DNA of 64,000 nt from Sphaerochaeta globosa str. Buddy (GTDB lineage: Bacteria > Spirochaetota > Spirochaetia > Sphaerochaetales > Sphaerochaetaceae): assembly GCF_000190435.1 (NCBI RefSeq), contig NC_015152.1:998458-1062457 (forward strand), written 5' to 3'. Shown one piece after another: positions 21,395 to 32,919 of the stretch (position 1 is the first letter of the stretch; each line of letters starts with the position of its first letter). A program made the position numbers and the translations under genes. The notes beneath the pieces were generated by a model, which worked only from the letters and a program-made list of their open reading frames with translations, was not told the origin of the DNA and did not search any database.

Positions 21395-21486
21395 AAAAGT
21401 AGTGTATCTGCAATGCAGACTGAGAGCAAGAACTTCTATTTGTGGGAATTTTTTCTGCATAAAGATACTGTTTTTTGTATAAAGGG

Positions 21487-21516
21487 TTGACAGAAATCCT
21501 AAAAGAGAGCTACAAA
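21487..21516 (+). promoter_or_regulatory. Candidate promoter of the ilv-leu operon
   Basis: TTGACA (21487-21492) and TACAAA (21511-21516) are 18 bases apart, about 40-65 bases upstream of the leader peptide start at 21555. The -35 matches consensus fully and the -10 only in part. A small hairpin AACGGC/GCCGTT at 21522-21538 lies between promoter and leader peptide. Confidence 0.55.
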
Positions 21517-21554
21517 CAAGAAACGGCCCATCGCCGTTCATTGAGGAGAGTATC

Positions 21555-21755
21555 GTGAACGCGTTCACCAAGCAGGTGCCATCAATGCACCGGACAGCAG
21601 AGAGGAAAGGAAAGATACAGGACTGCTCTCAGTTCTGCTTTGCCACATCTGATTCTTCAAGCTCCAACCTCTTGCTTCTTGTACGCATCAACCTCCTCCC
21701 CCTCATTACTCTCATCACCCTCCTATTCATCGTAGTAAGCCTAATTATTCTCTGA
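21555..21755 (+). CDS. Branched-chain amino acid operon leader peptide
   Basis: A GTG-initiated frame of 66 codons with a good ribosome site (GAGGAG six bases upstream). Residues 39-66 contain 12 Leu, 6 Ile and 3 Val in 28 positions, including four consecutive leucines, and stop right at the base of a stable hairpin (21754-21794). The next gene is ilvN, first of nine branched-chain amino acid genes. This is the layout of a translation-coupled attenuator: ribosomes slowed by shortage of Leu, Ile or Val would change downstream RNA folding. The first 38 residues (Ser, Lys, Cys rich) are unexplained, and the peptide is longer than the roughly 30-residue enterobacterial ilv leaders. It has no other recognisable function. 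Confidence 0.82.
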   Translation: MNAFTKQVPSMHRTAERKGKIQDCSQFCFATSDSSSSNLLLLVRINLLPLITLITLLFIVVSLIIL

Positions 21756-21822
21756 CCACGGCTGCAGAGTGAGATACCTGCATGGACCGTGGTCGAAGAG
21801 CCCCCAAACAAAACCTGGGGAG
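21754..21822 (+). promoter_or_regulatory. Attenuator RNA structures between leader peptide and ilvN
   Basis: GACCACGG (21754-21761) pairs with CCGTGGTC (21787-21794), and inside it TGCAG (21763-21767) with CTGCA (21778-21782). A second small stem is CCCCA (21802-21806) with TGGGG (21816-21820). The GGGGAG at 21817-21822 can instead pair with CTCCCC at 21696-21701, which falls in leucine codons 48-50 of the leader, giving mutually exclusive folds controlled by ribosome position. No long T-run follows, so termination may be Rho-assisted or control may act on ilvN translation. Confidence 0.6.
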
Positions 21823-21866
21823 CAGTCGTTTATACCCAAGCACCATACGAAGGAGAGCAACAGCAT

Positions 21867-22397
21867 ATGAATAGTTCAGAAAACCGCTACACACTGGCCA
21901 TCCTGGTCAACAACCAACCTGGTGTGTTGATGCGCGTCGTCTCCCTCTTTTCCCGCAGGGGCTACAATATCGACAGCCTTTCGGTTGGCGAGACTGAAAA
22001 AGAGGATGTCAGCCGAATCACCATCGTGGTCAGCGGCGACCGTCCGGTAGTCGAGCAGATAAAAAAACAGGTGGGCAAGCTTATCGACGTCAAACGGGTC
22101 TATGAAATGACCCAGACGCGCAGCCTGCAGCGTGAATTGGTCATGGTCAAGGTTTCGACCAAGAGCGAAAGCCGCTCGCAGGTAGTGGAGCTGGCCCAAA
22201 TCTTCAAGGCGAAAATCATCGATGTCACCGCTATGACGGTGTCCCTGGAGATGACCGGAAGCTTGGATAAGATCCAATCCTTCCTCGATCTCATGATGCC
22301 GTACGGCATTGTCGAAATGGCCAGAACGGGTATTACGGCTCTGGAGCGTGGCTCGCGCGCTCTCAGTTCGATCAGTTACAGCGAGGATGAAGTTTGA
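21867..22397 (+). CDS. ilvN: Acetolactate synthase small (regulatory) subunit
   Basis: A 176-residue protein, starting at 21867 with AAGGAGAG upstream; the frame is open earlier but that part belongs to the attenuator. The N-terminal ACT domain (YTLAILVNNQPGVLMRVVSLFSRRGYNIDSLSVG) senses valine, and the C-terminal half is the ALS_ss_C domain. It activates the catalytic subunit and gives feedback inhibition. Unusually, its partner ilvB is the last gene of the operon, almost 9 kb downstream, rather than adjacent. Confidence 0.94.
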   Translation: MNSSENRYTLAILVNNQPGVLMRVVSLFSRRGYNIDSLSVGETEKEDVSRITIVVSGDRPVVEQIKKQVGKLIDVKRVYEMTQTRSLQRELVMVKVSTKSESRSQVVELAQIFKAKIIDVTAMTVSLEMTGSLDKIQSFLDLMMPYGIVEMARTGITALERGSRALSSISYSEDEV

Positions 22398-22426
22398 ACG
22401 CAACGCCCCAAGGGCGCTTACCATAA

Positions 22427-23449
<1,023 letters not shown>

Positions 23450-23481
23450 CATAAAAAATTTTCACTACCGGGAAGGACACT

Positions 23482-25095
23482 ATGGAAAAAGACAGAATCT
23501 ATATCTTCGATACCACACTCAGAGACGGCGAACAGGCTCCAGGCTACAGCATGAACCTTGATGAAAAAATTCGCATGGCCCTACAGCTAGAGGCCCTGGG
23601 CGTGGATATCCTGGAAGCTGGGTTTGCCATAGCGTCCCCCGGCGATTTTGCCAGCGTGCAGGCGATCAGCAAGGAGCTCAAGCAGACGGTGGTCGCCTCC
23701 CTTTCACGAGCATTGGAAAAGGATATCGATGCTGCGTGGGAGTCCGTCAAGTATGCCAAGCGGCCCAGGATTCATACCTTTCTGGCTACCAGCGACCTGC
23801 ATCTGCAGTACAAGCTGAAGATGAGCCGTGAGGATGCCCTTGCAAAAGCAAAGGCAATGGTTGCGTATGCACGCAACCTGAATGACGACGTTGAATTCTC
23901 CCTGGAAGATGCCACCCGGACCGATTTGGACTATATGTGCAGGGTGGTGGAAGCAGTCATTCAAGCAGGGGCGAATGTAGTAAATCTGCCCGATACTGTA
24001 GGATACTCCACTCCCGATGACATGACCCGTATGGTCAGTGCTGTTATGAACAGAGTGCCGAACATCGACAAGGCCATTATTGCCGTACACTGTCACAACG
24101 ACCTCGGCTTGGCGGTTGCCAATACCCTTGCCGGATTGAAAGCCGGTGCCAGGCAGGCGGAGTGCACGATGTGTGGTATTGGTGAACGGGCGGGAAATGC
24201 TGCATTGGAAGAGCTGGTGATGGGTATCCGTACCCGTAGCGATGAGTATCCTTACAGCCACAACATCAAGACCGAGGAAATCATCCGATCCTCACGCCTG
24301 CTCACCCAGATCACCGGCGTTAAGCCGAATCCTTCAAAAGCCATCGTCGGTGCCAATGCCTTTGCCCATGAGAGCGGTATTCACCAACACGGTATGATGG
24401 CCAACAGCCTCACCTATGAAATCATGACCCCTGAAAGCGTCGGTGTGATGAACACCAGTTTGGTGCTGGGAAAGCACAGCGGTCAGCACGCCTTTGAGAA
24501 GCGCATTGCAGACCTTGGCTATACGCTGGGTAAAGAGGAAGCCATAGCCCTCTTCGCCGAATTCAAGAACCTTGCCGACCGCAAGAAGACCATTACCGAT
24601 CGCGACATCATTGCTTTGGTGGAGAACGCAAGCCAGAGCACACCGATCATCTGGGAACTGGACAGTTTTGTGGTCAACAGCGGCAATATGATGACCAGTA
24701 CCGCCTGCGTCACCCTGCGTAAGGGTGAGAAAAAGTTCCAGGAAGTGGCCTGCGGAACCGGCCCGGTGTATGCTTCTTTGAGGGCAGTGGAGAAAATCAT
24801 CCGCCATCCCTTCAGTCTTGAGGACTACAGCCTGCAGGCCGTGACCGAGCATCGCGATGCCCTTGGCGAAGTCTTTGTGAAGATCAGCGATGGAAGGGGC
24901 ATCTATCGCGGAAGAGGCGTGAGTACCGACATCATCGAGGCTTCCATCCTTTCCTGTCTTGCAGCGGTGAACCGCATGCTTGACGAAAAGGTTGCTCCTA
25001 GCAGTGGAAGCCTGAAGCCGACCAGTCCTACGAATTTTGAGAATGACATGCTCAGCACGCACTCCGACAAGAAAAAGGAGAGAAGCGATGCGTAA
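23482..25095 (+). CDS. leuA: 2-isopropylmalate synthase
   Basis: A 537-residue enzyme of the DRE-TIM family that condenses acetyl-CoA with 2-ketoisovalerate, the first step of leucine synthesis. DTTLRDGEQAPG at residues 10-21 supplies the catalytic Arg and metal-binding Asp; HCHNDLGLAVAN holds the metal-binding histidines; the SGIHQHG motif follows. The C-terminal allosteric domain for leucine feedback (from about residue 390) is present. Ends with ATGCGTAA overlap into cimA. Confidence 0.94.
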   Translation: MEKDRIYIFDTTLRDGEQAPGYSMNLDEKIRMALQLEALGVDILEAGFAIASPGDFASVQAISKELKQTVVASLSRALEKDIDAAWESVKYAKRPRIHTFLATSDLHLQYKLKMSREDALAKAKAMVAYARNLNDDVEFSLEDATRTDLDYMCRVVEAVIQAGANVVNLPDTVGYSTPDDMTRMVSAVMNRVPNIDKAIIAVHCHNDLGLAVANTLAGLKAGARQAECTMCGIGERAGNAALEELVMGIRTRSDEYPYSHNIKTEEIIRSSRLLTQITGVKPNPSKAIVGANAFAHESGIHQHGMMANSLTYEIMTPESVGVMNTSLVLGKHSGQHAFEKRIADLGYTLGKEEAIALFAEFKNLADRKKTITDRDIIALVENASQSTPIIWELDSFVVNSGNMMTSTACVTLRKGEKKFQEVACGTGPVYASLRAVEKIIRHPFSLEDYSLQAVTEHRDALGEVFVKISDGRGIYRGRGVSTDIIEASILSCLAAVNRMLDEKVAPSSGSLKPTSPTNFENDMLSTHSDKKKERSDA

Positions 25096-26680
25096 GATTG
25101 CACTGTTTGACTCCACCCTGCGCGATGGCAGCCAAGCGGAGGGAATAAGCTTTTCCGTTGAGGACAAGCTCAAGATTGTCCAGGCTCTCGACACCTTGGG
25201 TGTTGCATACATCGAGGCGGGAAATCCCGGCTCGAATCCGAAGGATTTGGAGTTTTTCTTCCGATCCAAGGAGTTGACGCTGCAGCACTCCAAACTGGTT
25301 GCCTTCGGTTCCACCCGAAGAAGGAATACCAAAGCCGAGGAAGATCCGAATCTGAAGAGCCTGGTCAATGCAGGCACCTCCTACGTTGCCATTTTCGGCA
25401 AGAGCTGGGACTTTCATGTGACGGATATCATCCGTACCACGCTTGAGGAAAACCTTTCGATGATTGAGGACTCGATCCGATTCATCACCGAAAGCGGTTC
25501 TGAGGTGTTTTTCGATGCAGAGCACTATTTCGATGGGTACCTTTCCAACAAGGAGTATGCCCTCGATTCCCTTCGTGCAGCCCTTCGCGGTGGTGCTACG
25601 ACGCTGGTTCTCTGTGAAACACGAGGGGGCCTTATCAGCTCCGAGGTGAAACGGATTACCCAGGAGACGATGGCTTTGTTTCCCGGTGTTGATTTCGGCA
25701 TTCACACCCACGACGACGTTGGTTGTGCCGTAGCTTCCTCGATTGCCGCCGTGGAGGCGGGTGTGGTCCAGGTGCAGGGCACCCTGCTGGGTTTCGGGGA
25801 GCGATGCGGAAATGCCAACCTTGCTTCGGTTGCAGGAATCCTGGGAACCAAATTGGGCTGCGACTGCCTGTGCGGTGAGAACCTGGAACGATTGACAAGT
25901 GTATGCCGCAGGGTGGCGGAAGTTGCCAATGTACGCATTGCAGGTAGTTCCCCTTTCATAGGCAAAAGTGCTTTCGCCCACAAAGGCGGTATGCATATCG
26001 ATGGAGTGCAGAAGAATCCGCTCTCCTTCGAGCATATTGATCCGATGGAAGTCGGCAATGAACGCAGGCTTTTGATGAGCGAAGTGGCCGGTAGGGCTCT
26101 GATGCTCAAGCGCATTGCCCGTATTGCCCCGAATTTGGATAAGGATGATCCGGTCACCGTCAGCCTGATGGATGAGCTGAAGCATCTTGAATCAGAAGGC
26201 TATCAATTCGAGGGCGCCGAAAGCTCCTTTGACTTGGTGATCAGAAGGCATCTGAAAATGTACCGCCCCTATTTCAGCCTGGTGCATTACCAGACCATCG
26301 GAAGCAGTCCCTATGCCGACCCGCACAGCGATGCAACCCATGCTGCAGTGGTAAAGGTGAAGGTGAAAGGCGAAAGTGCCATCACAGCCGCCGAGGGTGA
26401 AGGTCCGGTCAACGCACTGGACCGGGCACTGAGAAAAGTGCTTGAGCAATTCTATCCGACGCTCAAGAGTGTGTACCTTACGGACTACAAAGTACGGGTG
26501 CTCGACTCTGCAGGTGCCACCGCTTCAAAGGTCAGGGTTCTCATTGAATCCTCCGACGGCAAGCAGAGCTGGTCCACCATCGGGGTGAGCAAGGACATCA
26601 TCGAGGCAAGCTGGTTTGCACTCAGTGATAGTATTGAATATAAATTAATCGCAGATGGCGTTGAGCCATCGGGCGAATGA
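25088..26680 (+). CDS. cimA: (R)-citramalate synthase
   Basis: A 530-residue DRE-TIM family enzyme paralogous to LeuA. The start at 25088 has AAGGAG seven bases upstream and overlaps the leuA end by eight bases. The distinguishing CimA pattern [24 protein letters not shown] at the N terminus, with [12 protein letters not shown] metal site and [12 protein letters not shown] later, separates it from isopropylmalate and homocitrate synthases. It joins acetyl-CoA and pyruvate to citramalate, which LeuCDB then turn into 2-oxobutyrate, the isoleucine precursor, without threonine deaminase. The C-terminal regulatory domain is present, probably for isoleucine feedback. Confidence 0.92.
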
Positions 26681-26699
26681 GAGTAAGGAGAATTTCCCT

Positions 26700-27968
26700 A
26701 TGGGTATGACGATGACACAGAAGATCCTGGCCCACCATGCCAACATGGAGTCTGTACGACCCGGTCAGTTGATTATGGCTGATCTTGACATGGTGCTCGG
26801 CAACGATATTACGGCCCCGGTGGCGATCAATGAGTTCCCGAAGTTCGGTAAACAGACCGTTTTTGACAAGGACAAGGTTGCCTTGGTTCCCGACCACTTC
26901 TCACCGAACAAGGATATCAAAGCCGCTGAGCAGTGCAAGTGCCTGCGTGATTTTGCCAATGATCACGAGATTACCAACTACTTTGATGTTGGGCAGATGG
27001 GAATCGAGCATGCCTTGCTTCCGGAAAAAGGCTTGGTCGGTGCTGGAGACCTTGTTATCGGCGCTGACAGCCATACCTGTACATACGGGGCCCTTGGTGC
27101 TTTTTCCACCGGTGTCGGCTCGACGGATATGGCCTGCGGCATGGCTACCGGCCAAGCTTGGTTCAAGGTTCCTTCGGCTCTCAAGTTCAACCTCAAAGGC
27201 AAGTTCAACCGTTACGTTTCCGGCAAGGATTTGATTCTGCACATCATCGGCATGATCGGTGTGGACGGGGCTTTGTACCAGAGCATGGAGTTCACCGGCG
27301 AAGGGGTGGCAAACCTGACCATCGACGACCGTTTCACGGTAGCCAACATGGCTATCGAGGCTGGTGCGAAGAATGGGATTTTCCCGGTGGATGACATAAC
27401 GCTTGCGTACTTGAAAGAACATTGCCGTAAAGAACCGGTGATCTATACTGCCGATGACGATGCACACTATGAGACAGTCTTTGACATCGACCTTTCCACC
27501 ATCAAGAGCACGGTGAGCTTTCCACACCTTCCTTCCAATACCCGAACCATCGATGAGGTGGGAGAGGTGAGGATCGACCAGGTTGTCATCGGTTCCTGCA
27601 CCAACGGCCATATCAGCGACCTCAGGGAGGCTGCTGCGATACTCAAGGGTAAGAGGGTTGCCAAGCACGTACGTGCCCTGATTTTCCCGGCTACCCAGAA
27701 AATCTGGAAGCAGGCGATGAACGAAGGACTTTTTGATATTTTTGTAGACAGCGGCTGTGCTGTCTCCACTCCCACCTGCGGCCCTTGCCTGGGCGGACAT
27801 ATGGGAATCCTTGCCGCCGGCGAGCGGGCGGTGAGCACCACCAACCGTAACTTCGTGGGAAGAATGGGACATGTGAAGAGTGAAGTGTATCTGGCTAGCC
27901 CTGCAGTGGCTGCCGCCAGTGCTATCGCCGGGTATATTGCAGACCCGAACAAGGTTATGGAGGCGTAA
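26700..27968 (+). CDS. leuC: 3-isopropylmalate dehydratase large subunit
   Basis: A 422-residue aconitase-family protein of the short (archaeal/Clostridium-type) form. Start at 26700 is supported by AAGGAG nine bases upstream. [4Fe-4S] cysteines are visible in [13 protein letters not shown] and in [27 protein letters not shown] is the substrate-binding region. It isomerises 2- and 3-isopropylmalate and, for isoleucine, citramalate through citraconate. The gene is followed by leuD with one base between. Confidence 0.95.
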
Positions 27969-27969
27969 G

Positions 27970-28467
27970 ATGCAGGTACAAGGATCTGTATTCAGATATG
28001 GGGACAATGTTGACACCGATGTCATCATTCCGGCGAGGTACCTCAATACCTCCAATCACAAGGAACTGGCCCAGCATTGCATGGAGGATATCGACCAGGA
28101 TTTCATCAAGCAGGTGAAAAGCGGCGATATCATGGTCGCAGACAAGAACTTTGGCTGCGGCTCAAGTCGTGAACATGCTCCTATTGCGATCAAGGAGAGC
28201 GGCATAAGCTGCGTCATCGCACGTACGTTTGCCCGCATTTTCTATCGCAATGCCATAAACATCGGCCTTCCCATCCTGGAGTGCCCCGAAGCCTGTGACG
28301 GAATAAAGGCCGGTGATGTGGTATCGGTTGATTTCTCCAGTGGCACCATCACCAATGTGACAACCAAGGCAGTGTTCCACAGTGAGCCCTTCCCTCCGTT
28401 CATGCAGGATTTGATCGCCAACGGCGGTCTGGCCGGCTACATCGCCAAGAAGGGGGAAAACCTATGA
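27970..28467 (+). CDS. leuD: 3-isopropylmalate dehydratase small subunit
   Basis: A 165-residue swivel-domain protein, start at 27970 immediately after the leuC stop. [11 protein letters not shown] near residue 15, the [12 protein letters not shown] loop (about 60-71) and the [14 protein letters not shown] segment are family hallmarks. The short length matches the short LeuC partner. It overlaps leuB by four bases. Confidence 0.95.
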
Positions 28468-29522
28468 AAAAACATATAGCGGTGGTAAGTGGTGATGGAA
28501 TCGGACCGGATATTATCCGGGAGGCTTTGAAGGTACTTGGTGCCGTTGGTGCGAAATTCGGCCATACTTTCACCACGTCCAGCTACCTGGCGGGAGGCGT
28601 CGCCCTTGATGCGGTAGGAATTCCCTTGCCGAAGGAGACCCTCGAAGGCTGCAAAAACAGCGACAGCGTGCTGCTGGGCGCCGTTGGCGGTCCGAAGTGG
28701 GATACCTTGGCCAGCAATCTCAGACCCGAGAAAGCCTTGCTCGGCCTGCGCGGGGGCTTGGGATTGTTCTGCAACCTGCGTCCCGCAATCCTTTACAAGC
28801 AACTCAGTGATGCTTGCCCGCTGAAAGCTGAGATCATCGGCGAGGGGCTGGACCTGATGGTGGTTCGCGAGCTTACCGGTGGCATCTATTTCGGTGAGCG
28901 GGGAAGAAGCGATGATGCGGCATACGATACCATGGCCTATACGGTCACCGAGATTGAACGCATACTTCGCAAGGCATTCGAAATCGCCCAGAAGCGGTCG
29001 AAGCGGCTGTGCAGTGTGGACAAGGCAAACATCCTGAACACCAGCCAGCTGTGGCGCGAAGTGATCAAACGGGTGCAGGTTGAGTATCCCGATGTCGAGG
29101 TAAGCCATCTGTACGTAGACAATGCAGCCATGCAGCTGGTCCGCAATCCGGGGCAGTTCGATGTAATCGTAACGGAGAACATGTTTGGTGACATTCTCAG
29201 TGATGAGGCCAGCCAAATTACCGGTTCGATCGGCATGCTTCCTTCAGCTTCCCTCAGGGAAGACAGTTTCGGCATGTATGAACCGATCCACGGTAGTGCC
29301 CCTGATATCGCAGGCAAGGACCTTGCCAACCCGATAGCAACCATTCTGTCGGTAGCAATGATGCTGCGCTACAGTTTTGGCTTGCAAGCTGAGGCTGAAT
29401 CGATCGAGAAAGCTGTCTCCAAGGTGCTGGATGGAGGGTATCGTACTGCCGACATCTATACACCAGGTATGAAAAAAGTTGGTACGAACGATATGGGTTC
29501 GTTGATCGCCCAGGCCCTGTAA
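28464..29522 (+). CDS. leuB: 3-isopropylmalate dehydrogenase
   Basis: A 352-residue NAD-dependent beta-decarboxylating dehydrogenase. The start [13 protein letters not shown], the substrate-binding arginines in LRPAILYK and [16 protein letters not shown], and the divalent-metal motif with DAxxMQL-like [31 protein letters not shown] are all present, as is [20 protein letters not shown] for cofactor binding. It oxidises 3-isopropylmalate (leucine) and 3-methylmalate (isoleucine by the citramalate route). Seventeen bases separate it from ilvD. Confidence 0.95.
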
Positions 29523-29538
29523 GAGGGGGAGGAAGAGG

Positions 29539-31224
29539 ATGGACACTACAAAGCAACGTTCTGCACAGATGACCGAGGGAGCCGAACGGAGTCCCCACCG
29601 GTCGTTGATGAAAGCCCTTGGATGGACCGACCGGGAAATACACATGCCGATCATCGGCATCGTCAACGGTGCCAATGAGATTATTCCGGGACATATCCAC
29701 CTAAACAGGATTGTCGATGCCGTAAAGGCCGGGGTGCGTCAGGCAGGGGGCAACCCTGTATCGTTTCCGGTTATTGGAGTCTGTGACGGTATCGCCATGG
29801 GACACACGGGAATGAAGTATTCGCTGGCAAGCCGCGAGATTATCGCCGACTCCATTGAAATCATGGCAACAGCTCATCCTTTTGATGCTTTGGTGTTCGT
29901 CCCCAACTGTGACAAGATTGTACCGGGCATGCTGATGGCTGCCGCAAGAATCAACATCCCTTCGATCTTTGTTTCCGGTGGTCCGATGCTTGCCGGCAAA
30001 ATTCCCGGTGAGAACACGTGTAAAACCAGCCTCTCGGTAATGTTCGAGAAGGTAGGAACCCATGCAGCAGGCTTGCTCAGCGATGAGGAGTTGCTTGCCT
30101 ATGAGGACAATGCCTGTCCGACCTGCGGTTCGTGCAGTGGTATGTTTACGGCAAACAGCATGAACTGCCTGACCGAAGCCATCGGTATGGGCCTTCCGGG
30201 TAACGGGACCATTCCCGCCGTCTACAGCGCCCGCGACCGTCTGGCCAAGGAAGCAGGGTACCAGATCATGGAGCTGCTGAAGAAGAACATCCGACCGCTG
30301 GACATCATGACCAAGGAAGCCTTTGCCAATGCCTTGGCGGTGGATATGGCCCTCGGATGCAGTACCAATACGATGCTTCATCTGCCGGCAATCGCCCATG
30401 AGTCCGGTGTTGCCTTGGATATTTTCATGGCGAATGACATCAGTGCGAAGATTCCGAACCTTTGCCATCTTGCTCCTGCAGGAGAGCACCACATTGAAGA
30501 CCTCTATGCGGCCGGCGGTGTGCTTGGTGTGATGCATGAGCTGGGAAAGGCAGGACTACTCAACCCGAAACTACTCACTGTCAGCGGTAAGTCGATCGGT
30601 GAATTGTATGAGAACACGATTGTCTACGACCATGAGGTGATTCGCCCCATCGAGCGTCCGTTCTCCAAGATGGGCGGCATCGCAGTCCTTCGTGGCAATC
30701 TTGCTCCCGATGGGGCGGTGGTCAAGCGCAGCGCAGTCGATGCGAAAATGCTGGTCCATGAAGGGCCTGCCCGTGTATTTGACAGCGAGGAGGCTTCCAT
30801 CAAGGCGATTTTCTCAGGCAAGATCAAGGCCGGTGATGTCATTGTCATCCGCTATGAGGGACCCAAGGGAGGGCCGGGCATGCGTGAGATGCTCAGTCCC
30901 ACCAGTGCCATTGCCGGCATGGGCTTGGACAAGGATGTCGCTCTTCTTACCGATGGACGGTTCAGTGGAGCCACCCGTGGAGCTTCGATCGGCCATGTAA
31001 GCCCGGAAGCCGCAGAAGGCGGACCCATCGGCTTGGTCGAGGAAGGCGATAGGATCAGAATCGACATTACCAAGGGATTATTGGAGTTGTTGGTCGACGA
31101 CGCAACGCTTGAGAAGCGGAGAAAAGTCTGGGTATGCAAGGAAAGCGAAATCCAGACTGGCTACTTGGCCCGCTACGCAAAGCAAGTGAGCAGTGCGTCC
31201 ACCGGCGCGATTTTCAGAACATAA
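29539..31224 (+). CDS. ilvD: Dihydroxy-acid dehydratase
   Basis: A 561-residue Fe-S dehydratase that forms 2-oxo acids in valine and isoleucine synthesis. Cluster cysteines appear in [12 protein letters not shown] and [37 protein letters not shown] near the C terminus is the conserved catalytic stretch. AGAGGGGGAGGAAG precedes the ATG. Full length and uninterrupted. Confidence 0.95.
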
Positions 31225-31236
31225 GGAGTACCTACC

Positions 31237-32919
31237 ATGCAGATGACCGGAGCCCAGATCATCATTGAGTGTTTGGTTGAACAGGGAGTTGATACCGTGT
31301 TTGGCTTTCCCGGAGGAGCAGTGCTTCCCCTCTACGATGCCCTGTACCAGAATCAAACCCGAGTACGCCATATTTTGACGAGCCATGAGCAAGGTGCCAG
31401 CCATGCTGCCGACGGGTATGCCCGCAGTACCGGAAAGGTCGGGGTATGCATTGCAACCAGCGGACCGGGTGCAACCAACCTGGTAACCGGTATAGCAACG
31501 GCCTATATGGACAGTGTGCCGATGGTGGCGATTACCGGAAACGTGACAACCCAGCTTTTGGGCAAGGATAGTTTTCAGGAAGTCGATATTACCGGCATCA
31601 CCATGCCGATCACCAAGCACAACTTCATCGTCAAGGATGTCGCAAACTTGGCGAAAACGCTTCGCAAAGCATTCCAGATCGCCCAGGAGGGCAGACCCGG
31701 CCCGGTTCTGATCGATGTACCCAAGGATGTGACCGTTCATACAGCAGATTTTGTTCCTGAAGTTCCCCAAAAGCTTGTCCCGCGTACCGAACGGCTCAGC
31801 GAGCAGAGCATGGAAGTTGCGCTTGCCTTGATCAAGGGCGCCGAGCGACCGATGTGTTATGTCGGTGGTGGGGTGATTCGTGCAAAGGCCAGTGAGGATT
31901 TGTCCCAATTCCTGGAGAATATCGACAGCCCTGCCTGTACCTCCCTGATGGGTTGCGGGGCGGTGAACTCATACAGTCCCCGCTTTACCGGTTTGGTGGG
32001 TATGCATGGAACCAAAGTTTCCAACATGTGCGTCTCCTCCTGCGACCTCTTGGTTGTAATCGGGGCAAGGTTCAGCGACCGCGTGGTAAGCAAAGCAAGT
32101 GCGTTTGCAAAAAATGCCAAGATCATCCATATCGATGTCGACCCGGCCGAGATCGACAAGAACATCAAGACCTACTGCCATGTGGTAGGTGATTTGAAGG
32201 TTGTGCTTGAAGAGCTCAATAAACGCATAGCAAAGCCAATGGTCCACACAACCTGGATGGAACAGGTTGCCGAGTACAAGAAGCGCTACCCCCTGCGTGT
32301 GGACAGCGAGAGTGAACGCAGCAAGGAAATCCTGAAAGCCTTGCAGGCTGTTCTGCCTCCTAACTTTTTTATTGTCACCGAGGTCGGCCAGCATCAGATG
32401 TGGGCCGCCCAGTTCCTCAAGCATGTCCAGCCGGGTCACTTCCTCACCAGCGGTGGGTTGGGGACCATGGGCTATGGCACCGGAGCTGCAATCGGGGCAC
32501 AAGTAGGCAACCCGGAAAGCCGGGTGGTCAACGTAGCCGGTGATGGTTCGTTCAGGATGAATTGCAACGAGCTTGCCACCATTGCACGCTATCACCTGCC
32601 TGTGGTCATTCTGTTGATGAACAACCATACGCTTGGCATGGTCAGGCAGTGGCAGACGCTGTTCTTTGACAAGCATTACAGCGAAACCACGCTGGACACC
32701 GATATCGATTGGGTGACCCTTGCCTCTGCTTTTGGCATCAAAGGCATGAGAATCCGTAAGGAAGACGATCCCAAGCCCATTCTCCAAGCTGCTTTGGATT
32801 TGGGAAAGGCTGTAGTCATCGAATGCGAGATACCCGTTGACGACAAGGTCTATCCGATGGTAGCCCCCGGGGCTTCCATCGAGGATATGTTGGGTGTACA
32901 GGAAGTGGGTGAATACTGA
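31237..32919 (+). CDS. ilvB: Acetolactate synthase large (catalytic) subunit
   Basis: A 560-residue thiamine-diphosphate enzyme. The catalytic Glu lies in LTSHEQGASHAADGYAR, FAD/substrate region follows, and the ThDP-binding GDGSFRMN...NNHTLGMVRQWQ motif is at about residues 432-470. It condenses two pyruvates, or pyruvate with 2-oxobutyrate. It is last in the operon and depends on IlvN, encoded first. Its last 70 bases overlap the end of a convergent XRE-type regulator gene, and no terminator is evident after it. Confidence 0.95.
   Translation: MQMTGAQIIIECLVEQGVDTVFGFPGGAVLPLYDALYQNQTRVRHILTSHEQGASHAADGYARSTGKVGVCIATSGPGATNLVTGIATAYMDSVPMVAITGNVTTQLLGKDSFQEVDITGITMPITKHNFIVKDVANLAKTLRKAFQIAQEGRPGPVLIDVPKDVTVHTADFVPEVPQKLVPRTERLSEQSMEVALALIKGAERPMCYVGGGVIRAKASEDLSQFLENIDSPACTSLMGCGAVNSYSPRFTGLVGMHGTKVSNMCVSSCDLLVVIGARFSDRVVSKASAFAKNAKIIHIDVDPAEIDKNIKTYCHVVGDLKVVLEELNKRIAKPMVHTTWMEQVAEYKKRYPLRVDSESERSKEILKALQAVLPPNFFIVTEVGQHQMWAAQFLKHVQPGHFLTSGGLGTMGYGTGAAIGAQVGNPESRVVNVAGDGSFRMNCNELATIARYHLPVVILLMNNHTLGMVRQWQTLFFDKHYSETTLDTDIDWVTLASAFGIKGMRIRKEDDPKPILQAALDLGKAVVIECEIPVDDKVYPMVAPGASIEDMLGVQEVGEY

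Follow-up and report, generated by a model that had tools for sequence, protein, structure and literature searches.

The enteric leader attenuators of branched-chain amino acid (BCAA) genes, namely ilvL of ilvGMEDA, the ilvBN leader, and leuL, have leaders of about 30 codons. The Sphaerochaeta locus analysed here resembles them in having a short Leu/Ile/Val-rich leader before BCAA genes, a stop codon adjoining the antiterminator strand, and a preference for a rare Leu codon, and differs from them in having a leader of 66 codons, a GTG start, no U-tract, and downstream hairpins (P2 and P3) that do not overlap. The tnaC leader of the tna operon combines a leader peptide with Rho-dependent termination; it is a model for one possible off-step here, and differs in sensing free tryptophan, through nascent-peptide arrest, rather than tRNA charging. 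In Corynebacterium, the ilvB-II motif comprises a BCAA-codon-rich uORF before ilv genes, with AUG, GUG, and UUG starts; unlike the Sphaerochaeta leader, it has 15–17 codons and an intrinsic terminator, and the two are likened by description, with no sequence relation evident (PMC10272879). In Leptospira, a spirochaete, the ilvB motif WRC-14-1 comprises a BCAA-rich uORF ~70 nt before an ilv gene with predicted attenuation, so attenuators of this kind already have a precedent in the phylum; this motif, likewise compared by description, has seven representatives, precedes ilvB rather than ilvN, and contains runs of Val codons (PMC8632094, PMC10272879). The Staphylococcus aureus ilv-leu operon has a leucine-rich attenuator peptide, backed by genetic evidence, and, as here, one leader serves the whole operon; unlike here, the organism is a Firmicute and the attenuator has an intrinsic terminator with a poly-U tail (PMC5794164). 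The literature searched, which covered few subscription journals, contains no description of such a system for Sphaerochaeta. Our analysis would add an entire spirochaete family to the range of BCAA leader attenuation, which in this family is apparently undescribed in that literature and absent from Rfam.

The window, a 64,000-nt stretch of the 3.32-Mb single-contig genome of Sphaerochaeta globosa str. Buddy, contains nine collinear genes, ilvN-ilvC-leuA-citramalate synthase-leuC-leuD-leuB-ilvD-ilvB (21867–32919), all identified by NCBIfam matches above curated cut-offs. The leader region is flanked by a divergent sensor kinase gene on one side and ilvN on the other, and all of its elements are on the + strand. 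The promoter (21487–21516) comprises TTGACA at 21487–21492, a spacer of 17–18, and CTACAA/TACAAA at 21510–21516, and GGGTTGACA together with a −10-like box at equal spacing is conserved across all g1 species printed. The leader RNA has a 5′ hairpin (AACGGC/GCCGTT, 21522–21538) directly 5′ of the leader ribosome-binding site GAGGAG (21543–21548). A hairpin is present at the equivalent place in 12 of 12 g1 loci folded, with stems that differ among loci (ACGGC/GCCGT, ACAGC/GCTGT, GGCT/AGCC, or CCTGC/GCAGG), and the ribosome-binding site, GAGGAG or AAGGAG, keeps its spacing in all g1 leaders. The 66-codon leader peptide gene (21555–21755) starts with GTG and contains, near its beginning, a small hairpin (GGTGC/GCACC, 21575–21591), paired in 100% of 12 distinct sequences with C-G, A-U, or U-A as its last pair, and, at its end, a Leu/Ile/Val block (21669–21752; 21 of 28 codons, ending IVVSLIIL) distinguished by composition, conservation, and codon bias. 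P2 (21756–21792), the candidate equivalent of an antiterminator, begins at the first base 3′ of the stop codon and pairs strand 2 (CCACGG, 21756–21761) with strand 3 (CCGTGG, 21787–21792). P3 (21800–21823), GC-rich and in terminator position, pairs GCCCCC (21800–21805) with GGGG-A-GC (21817–21823). Between P3 and the ilvN ribosome-binding site AAGGAG (21850–21855) lies a TATACCCA motif (21831–21838) that recurs in g1 and g41 with minor variation. None of 100 shuffles folds as well as the whole leader RNA (z −3.0). The original prediction of a 66-codon GTG frame with a ribosome site, a Leu/Ile/Val end block, a stop at the base of a stable hairpin, and a nine-gene ilv-leu operon starting with ilvN at 21867 holds at each of these positions. 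As a separate observation on gene order, ilvN is first and ilvB last, which sets the acetolactate synthase subunits seven genes apart; in the more distant class members L028–L031, ilvN appears directly behind an ilvB-like coding sequence.

The frame is extreme in composition and conserved in position. Among the 1,298 stop-ended frames in the 64-kb window that reach 28 codons or more, it ranks first for Leu, Ile, and Val in the final 28 residues (21; runner-up, 17), and the per-sequence maximum expected at random is 12–15 in 28 (20 Markov-shuffled 64-kb sequences). The next most Leu/Ile/Val-rich frame ends, at + strand stops 45313 and 45766 (15 and 17 of 28), lie close to each other and are possibly shadow frames. 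The leader frame is present in each of the 23 genomes of the genus that have an ilvN match, with a GTG or TTG start and a GAGGAG- or AAGGAG-type ribosome site; most of these leaders end in IVVSLIIL, and the rest end in a Leu/Ile/Val-rich variant. Across whole leaders, pN/pS is 0.14–0.65 and below 1 in 9 of 9 pairs, and gaps are whole codons, which points to coding constraint on the leader; we regard this constraint as moderate because a few part-leader values approach 0.9. Reading the frame as a leader peptide, with translation predicted from conservation, is strongly supported.

Codon counts in leaders of the long-leader clade differ from those in the window's genes. For Leu, CTG accounts for 0 of 119 codons (vs 31% in window genes), TTG for 3 of 119 (vs 21%), and CTA for 24 of 119 (vs 2.1%); for Val, GTA accounts for 26 of 32 (vs 21%); and for Ile, ATT accounts for 46 of 67 (vs 30%). 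A large share of the CTA, GTA, and ATT codons lies within the invariant tail of the leader. This use of rare codons fits a putative tRNA-charging sensor.

The two downstream hairpins are conserved in different ways. The lower stem of P2 does not vary across 18 distinct sequences; in its upper stem, each of the five pairs shows compensatory changes (13 cells, a level that none of the shuffles attained). The core of P3 is 95.8% paired, and its changes in the window-lineage alignment are one-sided only, with none compensatory. Covariation among relatives, originally proposed as a check, is found in the P2 upper stem and is absent from P3. P2 and P3 do not overlap in the window's lineage and are compatible in the window; mutual exclusion of the g11/g39 type, described below, is not evident. 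Because P3 folds with or without P2, it is not predicted to be a switched terminator by itself.

Further candidate pairings were considered and rejected. An extended GTGG/TTAT helix, tried as a 3:4 equivalent, is always pairable, has one-sided changes only, and equals shuffles. The alternative folds originally proposed to arise from pairing of CTCCCC with GGGGAG do not stand as a switch: in almost every species, shuffling the codon order yields the same duplex energy. CTCCCC, assigned to Leu codons 48–50, covers Leu48-Pro49, so that not all three codons are Leu. A long-range GTAAGC:GCTTAT helix, which closes a three-way junction in folds, is broken in L018–L020, and in L021–L024 its 5′ strand is missing while the 3′ sequence is still kept. 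A search with Rfam covariance models (T-box, riboswitch, and other) gave no membership, the sole match being a sub-threshold snoRNA (E 0.16), and a genome search did not find the leader hairpin at other sites. Five His-run matches in the genome, considered as a possible His-rich leader, are not leaders.

To place the locus in its family, we compared 139 Sphaerochaetaceae genomes (an order-level search gives the same 139), found an ilvN match in 94, and read the upstream DNA of all 94. A Leu/Ile/Val-rich leader precedes ilvN in 92 of the 94; reading the upstream DNA did not reveal one in L103 or L116. In nearly all family members, a CCACGG-like strand lies 0–3 nt 3′ of the leader stop (6 nt in L104), within the stretch that a ribosome terminating there would mask. 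The sister genera g11 and g39 have the textbook attenuator, in which strand 2 sits at the stop codon and is followed by strand 3 (CCCGTGGT), strand 4, and a T-run. In particular, local folds at 52 g11 and g39 loci have median energies of −13.6 kcal/mol for 2:3 and −16.6 kcal/mol for 3:4, with strand 3 pairing either way in mutually exclusive hairpins; in these genera, a ribosome at the stop would mask strand 2 and permit the terminator, and a ribosome stalled upstream would permit 2:3. Genera g42, g45, g5, and g3 have a strong 3:4-like hairpin without an adjacent U-tract. In these four genera (L082, L105, L107, L117, L026, L088, and L095), GGTGC(A) lies between strands 2 and 3 and its complement, (T)GCAC(C), lies before the ilvN ribosome site; the two form a candidate long-range pair in these U-less relatives.

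The comparison reveals that leader length and U-tract vary together. Leaders in the window's lineage have 55–74 residues and no U-tract; the same-genus leaders of L021–L024 have 35–39 codons and a U-rich stretch after P3, with the P3 equivalent in L023 and L024 followed by T6; and leaders in sister genera have 17–30 codons and T-runs. Over a family-wide range of 17 to 89 codons, the best U-stretch is inversely related to leader length (Spearman −0.65 for 91 leaders, which are related sequences, so that P values are not independent). Specifically, leaders with at least 7 T in 8 bases have 17–39 codons, except L104 and L117 (56–57 codons), whose T-runs do not adjoin the hairpin, and leaders with at most 5 T in 8 have 39–89 codons. 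Inspection of the window's sequence and comparison with relatives did not reveal a U-run after P2 or P3; after P2, there are at most 5 T per 8 bases in the window and 3–5 in the long-leader clade. The originally noted departures from the classic ilv leader (great length, GTG start, and no T-run) hold for the window's lineage, and, with four congeners having 35–39 codons and a U-rich tail, length and the missing T-run are traits of that lineage. On an ilvN+ilvC tree, U-rich forms occur in g11 and g39 plus two places within g1, and g4, U-poor and with 53 codons, branches within g39 at low support; a few transitions seem likely in the family.

We regard the locus as a whole as very probably a ribosome-mediated attenuator of the ilv-leu operon, of a known kind. 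The window contains a frame rich in end-product codons, an operon making Leu, Ile, and Val, and a maskable strand that pairs downstream. We assign it to a variant form because it lacks the U-tract that defines the classical terminator-type attenuator; the classical hairpin plus U-tract is present in g11, g39, L023, and L024, and is absent from the window. Judged from sequence, the system is homologous to the canonical 2:3/3:4 attenuators of the sister genera. In the proposed mechanism, translation of the leader peptide would test the charging of tRNA-Leu, tRNA-Ile, and tRNA-Val. If one charged tRNA is short, a ribosome would stall in the Leu/Ile/Val block, leaving strand 2 free, so that P2 would form and the operon would be on. 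If all are charged, a ribosome at the stop codon would cover strand 2, P2 would not form, and expression would be stopped before or at ilvN. Because strand 2 keeps its conserved position next to the stop codon, the same decision, ribosome at the stop vs ribosome stalled upstream, would be common to the family.

The off-step in the window's lineage is probably factor-assisted. Our first choice, at slightly below an even call, is factor-assisted termination of transcription, for example by Rho; a translational block of ilvN takes second place and is unlikely; and P3 acting as an intrinsic terminator of a weak or unusual type, listed after it, is equally so. A more specific rival proposal, less likely than not, is that the Leu/Ile/Val block is itself a Rho loading site that slow ribosomes hide under starvation. 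The block is rich in C (36%) and poor in G (8%), a rho gene is present in the genome, the U-tract is missing, and leader-controlled Rho termination exists in tnaC of E. coli. However, relatives with canonical terminators avoid G-containing Leu codons to a comparable degree, so the composition of the block is not diagnostic of Rho and we reject its C-richness as evidence.

Intrinsic termination at P3, working with the poor U-stretch AGCAGTCGTTTATA, would agree with the position of P3, which matches that of the U-tailed hairpin in the short-leader congeners L021–L024. It is improbable given the scarcity of T in the 8-base stretches counted above, and given that nothing switches a hairpin that forms whether or not P2 does.

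Still less probable is translational attenuation in which a leader vacated by ribosomes would let its pyrimidine-rich Leu block close the ilvN ribosome site by base pairing, silencing ilvN, and slow ribosomes on the block would keep the site open. For the majority of long-leader Sphaerochaeta species, the cost of opening the ilvN site is ~4–8 kcal/mol with the block exposed vs 0.3–3.5 with it covered, and long leaders accompany loss of the U-tract. However, the pairing, strong in folds, is accounted for by codon composition, its strength being equal to that of codon-order shuffles; the effect in the window is small (3.0 vs 1.4) and below shuffles; and a stall early in the block would free the pairing strand, giving the wrong direction. 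A chance origin of the frame, or its coding for an unrelated small membrane protein (a Leu/Ile/Val-rich tail would also suit a membrane anchor), is extremely improbable in view of the conserved position before ilvN, the strand 2 fixed at the stop codon, the variable N-terminal part and length (17–89 codons), and the extremity of the block relative to random sequence.

We offer as a speculative and rather doubtful extension that attenuators in several Sphaerochaetaceae lineages lost or gained the intrinsic terminator while keeping the sensor and strand 2, and that the lengthened Leu/Ile/Val tract of the U-less form serves as both sensor and effector (Rho loading site or shield of the ilvN ribosome site). 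If so, leader length and terminator swap places during evolution. The family offers a natural comparison among close relatives with a common sensor and strand 2: in some, a short leader goes with a canonical terminator, and in others, cultured Sphaerochaeta among them, the U-tract is missing and the leader is two to three times as long. This comparison makes it testable how an attenuator loses its terminator yet works.

Two further elements lie upstream of the promoter. An imperfect palindrome, AT-rich and resembling an operator (TGCATAAAgATACTGTTTTTTGTATAAAG), lies directly upstream of the −35 box, at 21455–21485, and is conserved across most of the g1 species; its version in relatives is TGCATAAACATACTGTTTTATGAATA, and similar TGCAT/ATTCAT boxes are found upstream of the promoter in g39 and g11. 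Because the palindrome recalls ARG-box-like sites, a putative repressor may provide an additional tier of regulation. Genus g39 has, upstream of the ilv promoter and ~330 bases before ilvN, a separate conserved membrane-like micro-ORF of 21–23 residues (e.g. MEAIVICLLGGIIIWALTRKQ; loci L050, L054, L055, L062, L064, L066, L067, L070, L072–L075, L080, and L086).
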